Source of the DNA: Alkalicoccus chagannorensis DSM 18086
GTDB taxonomy: Bacteria; Bacillota; Bacilli; Bacillales; Salisediminibacteriaceae
DNA length: 64,000 bases
Assembly: GCF_000429725.1 (NCBI RefSeq)
Contig: NZ_AUCK01000015.1
Location: 1 to 64,000 of the forward strand
Reading direction: 5' to 3'
Each line of letters begins with the position of its first letter. Within the stretch, counting starts at the first letter, position 1. Below, one piece after another: positions 1,437 to 63,408 of the stretch. Under the pieces are notes generated by a model that saw only the letters and a list, made by a program, of their open reading frames with translations, searched no databases and was not told where the DNA came from. Position numbers and translations under genes: made by a program.

Positions 1437-1506
1437 GTGAATCGCTCCTTTTTTTCTCTTTATCGTGCTGTGATGGAGAGCGTCCTGCGCTTTTGTCCCT
1501 GTTTAA

Positions 1507-1642
1507 GAAAGTATACGTTCTCATACAGGGGAATGCGGCTTCATGCGCTGCACTGGAAGAAACAAAAACGTTTTCTTCCCTCAAAAAGCTTGCAGCGCTT
1601 CCGCACGCCATTCCGACCAAAAGGCGCTTTGCGCTTTTGTCT
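1507..1642 (+). repeat. Interspersed palindromic repeat, copy 1 (full length)
   Basis: Copy of the window-wide repeat: GTAT/ATAC left hairpin, long central palindrome with apical GGAAGAAA/TTTCTTCC stem, and right terminal hairpin with GCGC arms inside AAAA and TTTT. It lies between two minus-strand genes but is oriented plus. The outer stem carries AATG on the left and CATT on the right where most copies have ACGG and CCGT, a compensating change. Confidence 0.85.
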
Positions 1643-3835: not shown

Positions 3836-3945
3836 GTCAGTCACCCTCCTTTAAAAGAATCAGCTCTGTTTTCCGTCAAATATTGAAGGGGAAAAGCCTT
3901 CGGCTCCTGTTTCTTTTGCTTTGCAGGAAAGCATAAGATGTCACA

Positions 3946-3980
3946 GCCGCCGTTCCGATCAAAAGGCGCTTTGCGCTATT
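3946..3980 (+). repeat. Interspersed palindromic repeat, right-end fragment
   Basis: Matches only the right end of the window-wide repeat: the GCCGTTCCGATC segment and the terminal hairpin with GCGC arms. The left three quarters are missing. Confidence 0.7.
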
Positions 3981-3991
3981 GATCGCGGCAA

Positions 3992-4542: not shown

Positions 4543-4846
4543 CGCGCTTTTGTTCCATGATAGGAATGTATAATTTTCATACAGTGTGACGGCGGCTCCA
4601 TGCGCTGCGCGGGAAGAACGTAGAACCTGTTCTTCCCTTGAAAAGCCTGCAGCGACGATGCACGCCGTTCCGACCAAAAGACGCTGCGTGTTTTTGTTCC
4701 AGGATAGGAATGTATAACTTTTCATACAAGGGGACGGCGGCATCGTACGCTGCTCGGGAAGAACGTAGAACCTGTTCTTCCCTTGAAAAGCCTGCAGCGA
4801 CGATGCACGCCGTTCCGACCAAAAGGCGCTTTGCGCTTTTGTTCAG
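4543..4846 (+). repeat. Interspersed palindromic repeat, two tandem copies preceded by a tail fragment
   Basis: Two near-identical copies (about 4561-4698 and 4703-4841) lie head to tail; the first is itself preceded by the right tail of another copy (CGCGCTTTTGTTCC). Each shows the GTAT/ATAC left hairpin, the GGGAAGAAC/GTTCTTCCC apical stem, the CGCTGC/GCAGCG and GGCG/CGCC outer arms, and the right GCGC hairpin. Frames open through the copies have no ribosome site and are rejected. The copies fill most of the 4428-4926 gap. Confidence 0.9.
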
Positions 4847-7306: not shown

Positions 7307-7350
7307 CTGCCGACAGATAGAACTTCAAAGCCCGCCCTTCATTTTTAAAT

Positions 7351-7484
7351 GTAGGAATGTATAAGTTTTCATACATTGTGACGGCGGCTTCCTGCGCTGC
7401 TCGGGAAGCGCGAAGAACCTGTTCTTCCCTTCAAAATCGGCGGTACACGCCGGTCCGACCAAAAGTAGCTTTGCGCTTTTGTTT
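7351..7484 (+). repeat. Interspersed palindromic repeat, copy with altered right arm
   Basis: Left end and central stem match the consensus, but the GCAGCG right arm is replaced by TCGGCGGTAC, so the lower stem is weaker. The right hairpin is present with a small change (AAAAGTAGC). Located between plus-strand genes. Confidence 0.85.
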
Positions 7485-14318: not shown

Positions 14319-14406
14319 CTTCCTGAAGCAGATGTACGTGGATTGCTTTCTTTCTACACCTTCGCCAGCTGCGGCGGGCAGAAGGGTGAGAACAGTGTTG
14401 ATCTAT

Positions 14407-14444
14407 CAGAAGCCGCCTCCATCTGACGATGGAGGCGGCTTCTG
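14407..14444 (+). terminator. Strong hairpin after the c-di-GMP phosphodiesterase gene
   Basis: A perfect 17-bp stem with a 4-base loop (CAGAAGCCGCCTCC... pairing with ...GGAGGCGGCTTCTG). No T-run follows, so termination could need a factor or the hairpin may protect the mRNA end. Confidence 0.65.
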
Positions 14445-14503
14445 TATGGTCGAAGGAGGAAAAGATCCTGAGATGACAGCGCTGGCGGAGCGCGCGGCGT
14501 CCC

Positions 14504-14676
14504 GATAAAAAGGTGCTCCGTGCTTTTGTTCTAGTTTAAGAAATCATAAGTTCTCATACAAGGAGACGGCGGCATCGTACGCTGCGCGGGAAGAACGAAG
14601 AACCAGTTCTTCCCTTGAAAAGCCTGCAGCGACGATGCACACCATTCCGACCCAAAGGCGTTTTGCGCTTTTATTC
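14504..14676 (+). repeat. Interspersed palindromic repeat with preceding tail fragment
   Basis: A right-tail fragment (14504-14530) is followed by a complete copy (14533-14676), as in the tandem arrays at 4.6 and 33.9 kb. Arms GGCGGCATCGT and ACGATGC pair in this copy. The remaining gap to 14988 has protein-like stretches but no start with a ribosome site; nothing else is supported there. Confidence 0.88.
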
Positions 14677-17170: not shown

Positions 17171-17190
17171 CGTCTGATACGTCGGTTCGT

Positions 17191-17305
17191 AAGAAAGCAT
17201 AAGATGGCATAGCAGAATGAAGGCGGCTTCGCGCGCAGCAAGAGAAGAATGAAGGTTCTGTTTTCCCTCAAAAGCCTGCGGCACGCGCAGTGCCCTTATT
17301 CCTTG
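17191..17305 (+). repeat. Interspersed palindromic repeat, degenerate copy
   Basis: Keeps AAGAAAGCATAAG, GGCGGCTTCGCGCGC, TTTTCCCTCAAAAGCCTGCG and a GCGCAG segment in the right order, but both stems have many mismatches. Probably an old copy. Confidence 0.55.
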
Positions 17306-21987: not shown

Positions 21988-22029
21988 ACGAGCCGGCGAT
22001 GGATTCACTCCATCGCCGGCTCGTTTTTT
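21988..22029 (+). terminator. Strong intrinsic terminator
   Basis: A perfect 16-bp GC-rich stem around a 5-base loop, followed by six T. It sits 158 bases after the stop of the upstream gene and directly before a repeat copy. Confidence 0.9.
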
Positions 22030-22033
22030 GTAG

Positions 22034-22175
22034 TAATAGGAATGTATAAGTTCTCATACAAGAAGACGGCTGCTCTATGCGCTGCACGGGAAGAACGAAG
22101 CACGTGTTCTTTCCTCAAAAAGCTTGCAGCGCTTCCGCACGCCGTTCCGACCAAAAGGCGCTTTGCGCTTTTGTA
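22034..22175 (+). repeat. Interspersed palindromic repeat, full copy
   Basis: Begins immediately after a terminator. Central loop stem here is GGGAAGAACG...CGTGTTCTTTCC, and the outer GCGCTGC/GCAGCGC arms match copy 1 rather than the tandem copies, so at least two subtypes exist. Confidence 0.88.
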
Positions 22176-22199
22176 CTTTGATTGGCATGCAGGAAGCCG

Positions 22200-33782: not shown

Positions 33783-33814
33783 GGCACCGGATCACGTATC
33801 CGGTGCCTTTTTTG
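33783..33814 (+). terminator. Intrinsic terminator after the DUF418 gene
   Basis: GGCACCGGAT pairs with ATCCGGTGCC around five bases and is followed by six T. Confidence 0.92.
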
Positions 33815-33818
33815 CATG

Positions 33819-34108
33819 ATAGGAATATATACCTTCTCATTCAAGGGGACGGCGGCTCCATGCGCTGCTCGGGAAGAAACAAAGAACGTTTTCTTCCCTA
33901 AAAAAGCCTGCAGCGACTCTGCACGCCGTTCCGACCAAAAGACGCTGCGCGCTTTTGTTCCATGGTAGGAATGTAAAAGTTTTCATACAAGGGGACGGCG
34001 GCTCCATGCGCTGCTCGGGAAGAAACAAAGAATGTTTTCTTCCCTAAAAAAGCCTGCAGCGACTCTGCACGCCGTTCCGACCAAAAGACGCTGCGCGCTT
34101 TTGTTCCA
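33819..34108 (+). repeat. Interspersed palindromic repeat, two tandem copies and trailing fragment
   Basis: Two almost identical copies (about 33819-33962 and 33966-34108) lie head to tail just after a terminator. Apical stem is GGGAAGAAA/TTTTCTTCCC here. A further fragment with CCGTTCCGACTGG occurs near 34130. The array separates the convergent DUF418 and ectD genes. Confidence 0.9.
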
Positions 34109-36258: not shown

Positions 36259-36299
36259 AAAAGAGCCACGCCGGGAGAGAACGCCGGCGTGGCTCTTTT
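36259..36299 (+). terminator. Intrinsic terminator after the SDR gene
   Basis: AAAAGAGCCACGCCGG pairs with CCGGCGTGGCTCTTTT around nine bases. The symmetrical A and T ends make it usable from both sides, and the hpt gene converges on it. Confidence 0.88.
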
Positions 36300-36300
36300 G

Positions 36301-36345
36301 AATGTATACGTTTTTCATACAGGGTGACGGCGGCATTCTCGGCTG
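36301..36345 (+). repeat. Interspersed palindromic repeat, left-end fragment
   Basis: Only the left end is present (ATGTATACG...TTCATACAGGG, then GACGGCGGCATTC, GGCTGCGCGG). It directly abuts a terminator. The rest of the gap to 36711 has GC-rich sequence with two GTGGCTCA motifs and no supported gene. Confidence 0.7.
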
Positions 36346-36711
36346 CGCGGACAACCAGGCTGCCGGTTGACCGCTGATATTCCGGCAGGGCCTGATGGAA
36401 AGAGTCCGTCGTCAAAGCGGATACGGCTGGCTCCATACGCGGAGGGAGCGTCCGGAAAAGGAGGGCAAAGCGTCTCCTGTGCCGATAAGAGTGGCTCAAA
36501 AGCGAGCAGGTGGCTCAACATAGCTGTCGGGCGACGCGGAGAGGCAGCCAGGGGCCGCTTCCGATGCCATGGTGCGGGATGGAACAGCAGGGGGAAGCGA
36601 AAAGATGCGTACCTGTTGGCGTACCTGCCGTGTGCTTCGGCTGGTCATGGGCCTTTGACTCGAAACCTGAAGAAGCACAGGGGATACGCCTTTGCAGTAG
36701 AGCGGCTCTGT

Positions 36712-40875: not shown

Positions 40876-40954
40876 CCCCCTTGCAGCCCCCAGCGTGAAG
40901 GCGGTGTAGTTTCCATGAACCGTGCTGGGACAATAAAAGTTGAAATGAGCAGAA

Positions 40955-40995
40955 AAACGCTTCCGATGATTCCTATGGTATCGTCGGAAGCGTTT
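40955..40995 (+). repeat. Hairpin repeat family 2, copy 1
   Basis: AAACGCTTCCGATGAT pairs with ATCGTCGGAAGCGTTT (one G-U wobble) around a 9-base loop. Two other copies lie at 51269 and 53450. Likely acts as a terminator or mRNA 3' end structure downstream of the lipoprotein gene. Confidence 0.85.
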
Positions 40996-41140
40996 CGCAT
41001 GCAGGGGAGAATGCCATGGCTGATTCCGTCTGCCGGGACCGGATTACAGAAAAAAGAGGCCATCTCCTCTGGAGGCGGCCTCGATCGATCTATGTTGTGG
41101 GAGAACGCGGCCTGCTGCCGGCGCTCCTGCTGTGACTTCG

Positions 41141-41530: not shown

Positions 41531-41783
41531 GGCGGAGACCTCCTTATCGCCTGTTCGTCCCCTATCATAACTGCTGTGTGCTTGAAAAACAGCGTTGTTA
41601 CACGATTATTATCGAAGTGTCACCGAAATGAGATATTAGTAATCACTGCCGTAAAAAATGAGATTTTTTGCCGGGGCCGTTCCGGAGTGGATTCCTGCTC
41701 GTGAGAATTTGCCATTGTGCACGTTCAATCCGGGGAGAACCGCCGACTACTGCCTGTGGCACGGGGGGGAAGATGGTATAGGA

Positions 41784-41894
41784 AAAACGGCGTCGCGCGC
41801 TGCACGGGACGAAAGTAGAACCTTTTCTTCCCTCGAAAAGCCTGCAGCGACGCCGTCCGCTGTTCCGACTTGAAGACGCTGCGCGATTTTGTTC
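41784..41894 (+). repeat. Interspersed palindromic repeat, divergent copy with compensated arms
   Basis: The left arm reads ACGGCGTCG and the right arm CGACGCCGT, a perfect 9-bp pairing although both differ from the consensus. CGCTGC/GCAGCG and the GCGC right hairpin are retained, but the apical stem is altered. The left GTAT hairpin is weak. Confidence 0.8.
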
Positions 41895-51227: not shown

Positions 51228-51268
51228 AGAGAAGCCGGCTCTGCTGCAGCGGGGTCCTTCATGAAAAT

Positions 51269-51305
51269 ACGCTTCCGGTGATCCCGTATGGATTGTCGGA
51301 AGCGT
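51269..51305 (+). repeat. Hairpin repeat family 2, copy 2
   Basis: ACGCTTCCGGTGATCC pairs with GGATTGTCGGAAGCGT; three neighbouring pairs are G-U or U-G wobbles, so the RNA stem is kept though the sequence differs from the other copies. Lies just after the dioxygenase gene. Confidence 0.85.
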
Positions 51306-51490
51306 TTCGTGTATACCTGGAAATAAGGTTAGTGGCTCATGCAGAGGATTATGTTCCTTTTGGCATGTGAGCAGGCCGCTTCTGCTCGCGGAAGGGGGTG
51401 AATCTCCAACCTGTTCAGGCTGCCCGGACGTGATCCGCAGCGATCTTCCTGCGATTTCACGAAATTGTGATACTCTCTTCGGATTTTCCT

Positions 51491-52560: not shown

Positions 52561-52664
52561 TCTATACGAGAGCTCCCTATTCTTCGGTTCTAAAATTAAT
52601 GATGGGGCAGCGGTTCATTTCTGTGGCACCTTTTCTTCCGTTTTAGGCGGACGTCTGCCAAGGA

Positions 52665-52728
52665 GCGCTGCGCTCAAAGAACCCGCGGTACACGCCGTTC
52701 CGATCACAAGGCGCTCCGCGCTTACGTT
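52665..52728 (+). repeat. Interspersed palindromic repeat, right-half fragment
   Basis: Keeps CTCAAAGAACCCGCGGTA, CACGCCGTTCCGATC and the right GCGC hairpin. The left half is missing. Confidence 0.7.
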
Positions 52729-53493: not shown

Positions 53494-53529
53494 CGTCTGT
53501 ACATAGACATCACGGAACCGGCGTGCCTT

Positions 53530-53590
53530 GACGCCGCAGGTTTTTAGAGGGAAGAAGGCATTTTTCGTGCTTCCCGAAAAGCGGACACTG
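53530..53590 (-). repeat. Interspersed palindromic repeat, degenerate minus-strand fragment
   Basis: GCCGCAGGTTTTTAGAGGGA followed by GCTTCCCGAAAAGCGG matches the reverse complement of the central stem of the repeat. It is the only clear fragment in this orientation. Confidence 0.55.
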
Positions 53591-53601
53591 CACTGGCCTG
53601 C

Positions 53602-54021
53602 TCAGGGAGAGCCCGGCTTCTCCTCATCGTCCCGGACAGCGGAAATCCCTTTTTCTTCAAAGATTTCTCCTGCGATGCGTATCGCTGTTGCCGCTTTCGG
53701 GAAGCCCGCATAAGCGGAACACTGAAGCATCACTTCCACAATCTCCTCGGCTGAAAATCCCGCCTTCAGCGCCGCCCGGATATGGAACGGCAGCTGTTCG
53801 AATGCCCCTTGGGAAATGAGGGAAGAGAGCGTGATCAGCGTGCGCTGCTGCTGATCCAGCACGTCCCGGTCGTACACTTCCCCGAAACCGTAGCCGACCA
53901 TCATGTCGACAAACCTGGGAGAGATATTTCTGTAGTTTTCAATCATCTGCACGCCTTGATCATCGGTCATGGTGCGCAGTTTAGCGAGTCCTTTTTGATA
54001 AGCGTCTCCGTCTCTGTTCAC
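53602..54021 (-). CDS. Carboxymuconolactone decarboxylase family protein
   Basis: A 139-residue AhpD-like/CMD fold protein. The central TLITLSSLISQGAFEQLPFHIRAALKAG segment and the EEIVEVMLQCSAYAGFPKA helix are characteristic. Only one Cys (QCSAY) is present, so the CxxC peroxidase site of AhpD is absent; this fits the decarboxylase-like or uncharacterised branch. Ribosome site GGGGCACC is weak. It lies downstream of the thiamine-diphosphate enzyme gene by 111 bases on the same strand. Confidence 0.85.
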   Translation of the reverse strand: MNRDGDAYQKGLAKLRTMTDDQGVQMIENYRNISPRFVDMMVGYGFGEVYDRDVLDQQQRTLITLSSLISQGAFEQLPFHIRAALKAGFSAEEIVEVMLQCSAYAGFPKAATAIRIAGEIFEEKGISAVRDDEEKPGSP

Positions 54022-58324: not shown

Positions 58325-58334
58325 GCTTTTTCTA

Positions 58335-58464
58335 GTAGTTTAAGAAAGTTCTCATACTAGGAGACGACGGCTCCAGCTGCTCGGGAAGCAGGAAGAACCG
58401 GTGCTTCCCTCAAAGAATCTGCGGTACACGCCGTTCCGGTCAAAAGGCGCTCTGCGCTCTAGTC
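58335..58464 (+). repeat. Interspersed palindromic repeat with compensated apical stem
   Basis: Apical stem reads GGGAAGCA with TGCTTCCC instead of GGGAAGAAC with GTTCTTCCC; the A-T pair became C-G on both arms. The right arm has CTGCGGTAC like copy 7351-7484. Right hairpin present. Confidence 0.85.
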
Positions 58465-58513
58465 AGCCTCGCTGTTCGGCCACGCAGACGCCCTCGATGG
58501 TTCTCCGGATCAA

Positions 58514-62896: not shown

Positions 62897-62903
62897 GTAA
62901 TAA

Positions 62904-62953
62904 GAGTGTACACGTTCTCATCGAGGGAGACGGCGGTGCGCGCTTTTGTTCAA
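62904..62953 (+). repeat. Interspersed palindromic repeat, internally deleted
   Basis: Left end (GTGTACACGTTCTCATCG, GAGACGGCGG) joined directly to the right tail (CGCGCTTTTGTTC); the central stem is deleted. A gene remnant starts just after it. Confidence 0.65.
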
Positions 62954-63300: not shown

Positions 63301-63338
63301 GCCGGTAAGCAGAGGGGAAATACAGCCAAACGAATAAA

Positions 63339-63408
63339 CAGGTTTCTTCCCTTAAAGAACCTGCGCCGCACGCCGTTCCGAACAAAAGGCGCTGCGCGCT
63401 TTTATTCT
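63339..63408 (+). repeat. Interspersed palindromic repeat, right-half fragment
   Basis: Contains TTTCTTCCCTTAAAGAACCTGC..., CACGCCGTTCCGAAC and the right hairpin GGCGCTGCGCGC. The left half is missing. The gap up to 63647 beyond it is AT-rich, with the sat leader. Confidence 0.7.

Follow-up and report, generated by a model that had tools for sequence, protein, structure and literature searches.

A 143-nt non-coding hairpin repeat of Alkalicoccus chagannorensis looks like a probable new family of tiny mobile elements

What is the folded repeat of about 140 bp that occupies so many gaps between genes in Alkalicoccus chagannorensis DSM 18086, and how does so short a sequence come to be so frequent? 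The window analysed here is a 64-kb stretch (54.5% GC) on contig C13 of the 3.52-Mb genome, which is assembled in 38 contigs. An initial annotation, made from the letters of the window, had described an interspersed structured repeat with tandem pairs and scattered pieces. A covariance model (R1), built from an alignment of the ~143-nt repeats of the host genome, gave 18 matches in the window (Table 1). They cover every copy and piece of that description, including the tandem pairs at 4558/4702 and 33817/33963. The search of the full genome that the annotation had proposed returned at least 150 full-length copies, with E values down to 6e-49, so the repeat is not scarce outside the window. The copies measure ~143-146 nt and hold no protein-coding content. 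As argued below, this non-coding hairpin repeat looks like a probable new family of tiny mobile elements.

Table 1. Copies and pieces of the repeat in the window, structural parts of the copy at 4702, and two host terminators used as landing sites
Feature	Position	Strand	Basis and remarks
Full-length copy	1501..1642	+	R1 145.8 bits; preceded by GTCCTGCGCTTTTGTCC, probably a remnant right end
Partial copy, right end kept	3880..3984	+	R1 29.8 bits; right-end half-model match 3948-3984
Full-length copy, first of head-to-tail pair	4558..4699	+	R1 160.7 bits
Full-length copy, second of pair	4702..4844	+	R1 175.4 bits; best match of the genome
Left hairpin TGTAT/ATACA of 4702 copy	4711..4728	+	Mapped structure, pairing counts
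Central long nested hairpin of 4702 copy	4731..4816	+	Predicted structure
Tip hairpin GGGAAGAAC...GTTCTTCCC of 4702 copy	4756..4782	+	Alignment, pairing counts
Conserved unpaired A-rich bulge TTGAAAA, 3' of tip hairpin	4783..4789	+	Position kept in distant relatives
Right terminator-like hairpin AAAAGGCGC-TTT-GCGCTTTTGTTC, end of 4702 copy	4821..4844	+	Sequence
Full-length copy	7349..7484	+	R1 134 bits
Decayed copy abutting the 14534 copy	14399..14531	+	R1 24.4 bits; additional to the initial annotation
Full-length copy	14534..14676	+	R1 157.5 bits
Decayed copy	17187..17301	+	R1 42.5 bits
Host intrinsic terminator, landing site (stem-loop and T6)	21992..22029	+	Sequence
Full-length copy, few nt past the T-run of terminator 21992..22029	22034..22176	+	R1 161.7 bits
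Host intrinsic terminator, landing site of 33817 copy	33783..33813	+	Sequence
Full-length copy, first of head-to-tail pair	33817..33960	+	R1 156.8 bits
Full-length copy, second of pair	33963..34106	+	R1 160.9 bits
Left-end piece behind terminator 36265-36299	36294..36382	+	R1 36.2 bits
Copy, left end damaged	41766..41894	+	R1 90.9 bits
Right-part piece	52605..52728	+	R1 33.2 bits
Decayed copy, sole minus-strand one of the window	53515..53628	-	R1 43.5 bits
Shortened copy behind terminator ending at 58331	58338..58465	+	R1 101.6 bits
Copy with internal deletion, its left and right ends joined	62898..62951	+	R1 23.8 bits
Right-part piece	63315..63407	+	R1 54.9 bits

A DNA search for the repeat in seven congeneric genomes found none, and this contrast with the at least 150 full-length matches of the host means that the repeat is not a product of chance. 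The covariance model recovered two diverged copies from a single congener (G006). Searches of plasmids, phages and IMG/VR found no related elements. Rfam 15 had no match at the gathering threshold in the window, in line with the earlier statement that no named family applies. Against the element loci of both genera that carry the repeat (Alkalicoccus and Salipaludibacillus, see below), it returned sub-threshold matches at chance level only, and no shared transposon ends were found. In a literature search of incomplete coverage we found no description of a non-intron repeat targeted to terminators. Copies were also said to avoid genes. This is true of clear genes, while some copies lie within mechanical calls from our simple ORF calling that are unvalidated as genes.

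Each congeneric species seems to have a repeat set of its own. The complete genome of G003 (45.5% GC; loci L095-L114) carries different, longer interspersed repeats ending like CTTTATTTTCAAGGCAGCC, with ~40 matches in some stretches of the 400 kb sampled. A third, unrelated composite repeat array (GAAGACAAGCCCACGGCAAGCTTCTGCCG...) was seen in G002 (L247, L248, L251, L253-L255).

The three hairpins ascribed to each copy, a left one, a long central one with a strong tip and a right terminator-like one, are predicted in essentially every copy, and their pairing is conserved. Across 36 distinct host copies, pairing holds in 85.6% of the structure cells; shifting the partner strand by 1-3 columns lowers this to 37-51%. 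Double-sided changes number 29 in these copies against 15.5 in shuffles, and 23 against 7 among 18 relatives, drawn from S. neizhouensis and a further genome, where 92.5% of cells pair; since copies share ancestry, these shuffle counts are not probabilities. Compensatory changes in the host copies fall at the tip and right hairpins, and the tip pair GGGAAGAAC...GTTCTTCCC covaries with GGGAAGCAT...ATGCTTCCC in another subfamily. The arms of the right hairpin are an A-run and a T-run, as in an intrinsic terminator.

The flanks of copies that share 97-100% identity over 142-146 nt are unrelated, and the similarity ends at the same two edges (left ~N4-ATARGAATG, right ...GCGCTTTTGTTC in the aligned copies). 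Therefore, the element moves, or moved recently, as a unit of ~146 bp. A near-identical head-to-tail dimer is present at two loci. Moreover, 13 abutting pairs and one triple occur among the 150 matches listed, all of them in direct orientation. Many copies are truncated or decayed. The pieces at 62904 and 63339 were considered as the two ends of one long element and rejected: they are two separate remnants. Left and right half-models, run over 0.70 Mb, gave no pair with a gene between them, that is, no autonomous long copy.

The MITE-like or REP-like nature proposed at first is right in the broad sense of a non-coding, mobile, interspersed and structured repeat, but fails under the strict definitions. 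No target-site duplication was seen at the aligned edges, and no clear terminal inverted repeat was found in the host genome (left GATAGGAATG, inverted right GAACAAAAGG). A REP/RAYT pair is missing as well: the search for a RAYT gene in the host genome found only an IS605 tnpA with its tnpB. We therefore disfavour, and give little probability to, a DDE-type MITE whose terminal repeats have degenerated and whose driving transposase has been lost. Short length, high copy number and lack of coding content would suit such an element, and a few bases are common to the left end (ATAAGAA) and the right end (TAAGAAA, inverted) of the S. neizhouensis element. However, the missing duplication and inverted repeat speak against it, as does the fact that orientation is strictly single with respect to both target and replication.

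This target is a transcription terminator. Just ahead of the left edge, and on the same strand as the element, stands the T-run of an intrinsic terminator. In 500 kb of stretches, partly picked near known copies (which biases density, not orientation), a simple rule found a hairpin and T-run 3-14 nt upstream of 29 of 44 well-preserved copies, against 131 of 6900 random intergenic points (1.9%). All 22 copies positive under a stricter rule have a T-run that begins 8-11 nt before their left edge, so the remark that copies often follow terminators could be sharpened to a fixed spacing. About one third of the good copies have no terminator by the simple rule, and many of these stand behind a hairpin whose T-run is shorter, or behind another copy's right end. 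As the element itself ends in a hairpin and T-run, copies stack head to tail. Up to the 5S terminator, which they share, the four assembled 3' ends of rRNA operons have one sequence; in the T-run of this terminator or just after it they part, each continuing into a different element or remnant. For one host gene pair (terminator 33783..33813), the orthologous region of G002 has a terminator and no element.

The orientation of the elements follows replication. Over the same 500 kb, 63 of 66 element matches (63:3) agree with GC skew, compared with 329 of 468 genes (329:139; Fisher p = 2e-6) and 81:82 for element-free terminators. Thus, orientation tracks replication more closely than genes or terminators do. 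On contig C1 the sign of the GC skew flips near 250 kb, where the strand of the elements switches too; on other contigs, 130 of 136 copies among the matches listed are on the contig's majority strand. In these bacteria the G-rich strand is the leading strand, and taking it as such, the terminator hairpin that precedes the element is on the lagging-strand template. In principle, the strand bias could come from selection after insertion.

These observations bear on the other early proposal, an RNA processing or termination module. Since the right hairpin resembles a terminator, such activity may be a side effect. A module of this kind, taken as the main explanation, leaves out the mobility with unrelated flanks, the strand bias in excess of that seen for genes and terminators, and the head-to-tail stacking. 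We think it quite unlikely that the copies are primarily functional RNAs, selected as backup or bidirectional terminators or as stabilisers of RNA 3' ends, with their spread being secondary. The A-run and T-run arms and the conservation across genera of the structure and of several unpaired motifs would fit that role. Yet the copies sit past a terminator that already exists, many are truncated or decayed, most congeners lack the element, none stands behind the orthologous G002 gene, and the strand bias tracks replication, not genes.

We consider it likely that the repeat is a non-autonomous mobile element of ~143-146 nt, which inserts as a unit and in one orientation directly 3' of a terminator stem-loop and T-run. 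Its target would be the terminator hairpin, folded where the lagging-strand template is single-stranded at the replication fork, and used as IS200/IS605 (Y1) elements or group IIC introns use theirs. The hairpins of the element may be the substrate of a putative enzyme supplied in trans, which would join the element to the 3' side of the terminator hairpin. The right hairpin and T-run of every copy would then offer the next landing site, and head-to-tail arrays would arise because every copy is a new one. Landing behind terminators and bringing a terminator along would make insertions nearly harmless; such minimal harm would allow a high copy number.

Which enzyme could do this? No mobilising enzyme is linked to the element among the Y1 transposase and group II intron of the host genome. 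The lack of a ribozyme in the element favours Y1-type machinery over the group IIC type. In its enzyme-specific version, the preferred reading becomes that of a palindrome-bearing, PATE-like derivative moved by a TnpA that reads the hairpins which the derivative forms on the lagging-strand template. We offer this as a tentative proposal and give it less than an even chance. IS200/IS605 elements are recognised by hairpins near both ends, absence of target duplication, a fixed left target, a single orientation and a lagging-template bias (PMC6006769), and the element displays these hallmarks of the class. S. neizhouensis has several Y1 genes, some of them broken, but no element at their loci. 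The only Y1 transposase of the host genome belongs to one IS605 copy with complete tnpA-tnpB (L115; C11 15,291-15,647). It lies directly behind the T-run of a host gene terminator (CAGCCTTTTTTAC|AGACTTCC), as this proposal would have it; against the proposal, its ends are unlike those of the element and it is on the strand opposite to the repeats of contig C11. This IS605 and a second tnpB locus were rejected as partners since their ends differ, and a weak R1 match beside the IS605, in flanking sequence, was taken as chance.

The resident group II intron (L116, at C1 495,253-495,870 on the minus strand; L238; starts of contigs C3 and C32) suggests another source of the activity: element RNA could be inserted at terminator hairpins and reverse-transcribed by the intron's enzyme, in the manner of a SINE. 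The intron reverse transcriptase is the only RT family of the host genome and is closest to the GsI-IIC RT (6ar1; 410 bits, E 1e-121). Both visible 5' junctions of the intron lie directly behind terminator stem-loops, and insertion at terminators and the use of fork primers are established for group IIC introns (PMC4424553; PMC10190682). Two systems with a like landing habit and different ends thus share one genome. Nevertheless, a parasite of this intron is an unlikely identity for the element. RF00029 matches the resident introns, whereas the Rfam search of the window and element loci found no RF00029, domain V or ribozyme core in the element, and the intron sequence is not similar to it. 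Moreover, the intron ends (GTGTGCCC...CTCGAT) differ from those of the element, and the intron uses a TTCGT-like 5' exon sequence where the element uses T-runs.

A multi-copy IS110-family insertion sequence (protein start MNYNRNENIKQIHSETLIIGVDIAKK), with relatives in several Bacillaceae, abuts copies of the repeat and looked like a convincing autonomous partner from its left junctions. Eight left ends of the IS were found at contig breaks (L153 1-342, the ends of L152 and L151, L161 1-349, and the ends of C4, C9, C17 and C30), seven of them beside an element-like left end, AAGTATARG or CAGGATAGG. The right junctions (ends of C18, C29 and C34) refuted that role: two of the three run into the rest of the repeat (GAGGGAG|TATAAGTTTTCATACA...), so that the IS had inserted into the repeat, and we regard a partnership as highly improbable. 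With seven of eight left and two of three right junctions in the left end of the repeat, the IS110 is therefore a user of the repeat and not its mover. This parallels the IS110-family elements that target REP sequences, such as IS621, ISPa11 and ISPpu9/10 (PMC1525189), and makes the repeat a target in Bacillota for an insertion sequence of the guide-RNA type.

Relatives of the element exist beyond the genus. In Salipaludibacillus neizhouensis DSM 19794 (contigs NZ_KZ614146 and NZ_KZ614147), of the same family as the host, R1 found at least 33 diverged copies. A reverse covariance model (R2), built without any host-genome sequence, finds the copies of the window with E values down to 5e-13. On the main 3.63-Mb scaffold of S. 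neizhouensis, one change of strand near 1.83 Mb accounts for the orientation of 25 of 28 copies, and many copies of this species lie behind terminator T-runs. The terminator and replication-strand rules are common to both genera. A few other Bacillales genomes contain weak relatives that keep the architecture; the sequences are few and their scores modest. It is tempting to see here an unrecognised superfamily of structured, terminator-homing mobile elements across Bacillales with a replication-coupled mechanism of its own, in which, for example, the group IIC reverse transcriptase of the host would copy an element RNA. The tip hairpin, A-rich bulge and right terminator hairpin would be its common parts in at least three genera. 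We rate so broad a reading as rather unlikely; if true, the RNA-copied elements would be bacterial analogues of SINEs.

Comparison with known systems helps to place the non-autonomous element that we favour. It resembles group IIC introns in landing directly 3' of a terminator stem-loop on the same strand and in its dependence on the strand at the replication fork; it differs in being ~143 nt long without domain V, ribozyme core or ORF, in its ends, and in preferring T-runs over TTCGT. With IS200/IS605 elements and PATEs it shares subterminal hairpins, lack of target duplication, oriented insertion 3' of a fixed target and lagging-template bias, but no Y1-coding relative has its ends, and its target is a hairpin and T-run where theirs is a bare tetra- or pentanucleotide. 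REP/REPIN-RAYT systems are likewise high-copy, clustered, intergenic hairpin repeats targeted by IS110-family elements. However, REPs are 20-40 nt long against 143 nt here, and the element forms direct head-to-tail arrays and lacks a RAYT and the GTAG/CGTC tag. By their description, the MITE-like, structured and transcribed repeats bcr1-bcr3 of the Bacillus cereus group are close to the element in being of similar size, intergenic, folded, mobile and high-copy in Bacillaceae; as far as that description goes, terminator targeting sets the element apart from them (PMC3446304).

Such an element offers a simple reason why a compact genome can hold hundreds of copies of one short repeat: insertion takes place past the end of transcription, and each copy brings a terminator that restores the landing site. 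The users of folded DNA at the replication fork thereby gain a third kind, one that is no ribozyme. Which enzyme reads a terminator hairpin in DNA is a question testable in cultured Bacillaceae, for example S. neizhouensis DSM 19794. Terminator-adjacent repeats will also confuse the annotation of 3'-UTRs and sRNAs in these species.

A separate observation concerns the terminators themselves. A near-identical terminator hairpin, GCTTCCGATGATCC...GGATCGTCGGAAGCGTTT, stands behind unrelated genes at 40953-40997 and 51265-51309 of the window, with near copies in L022, L037, L155 and C32, as if a single terminator sequence had been copied.
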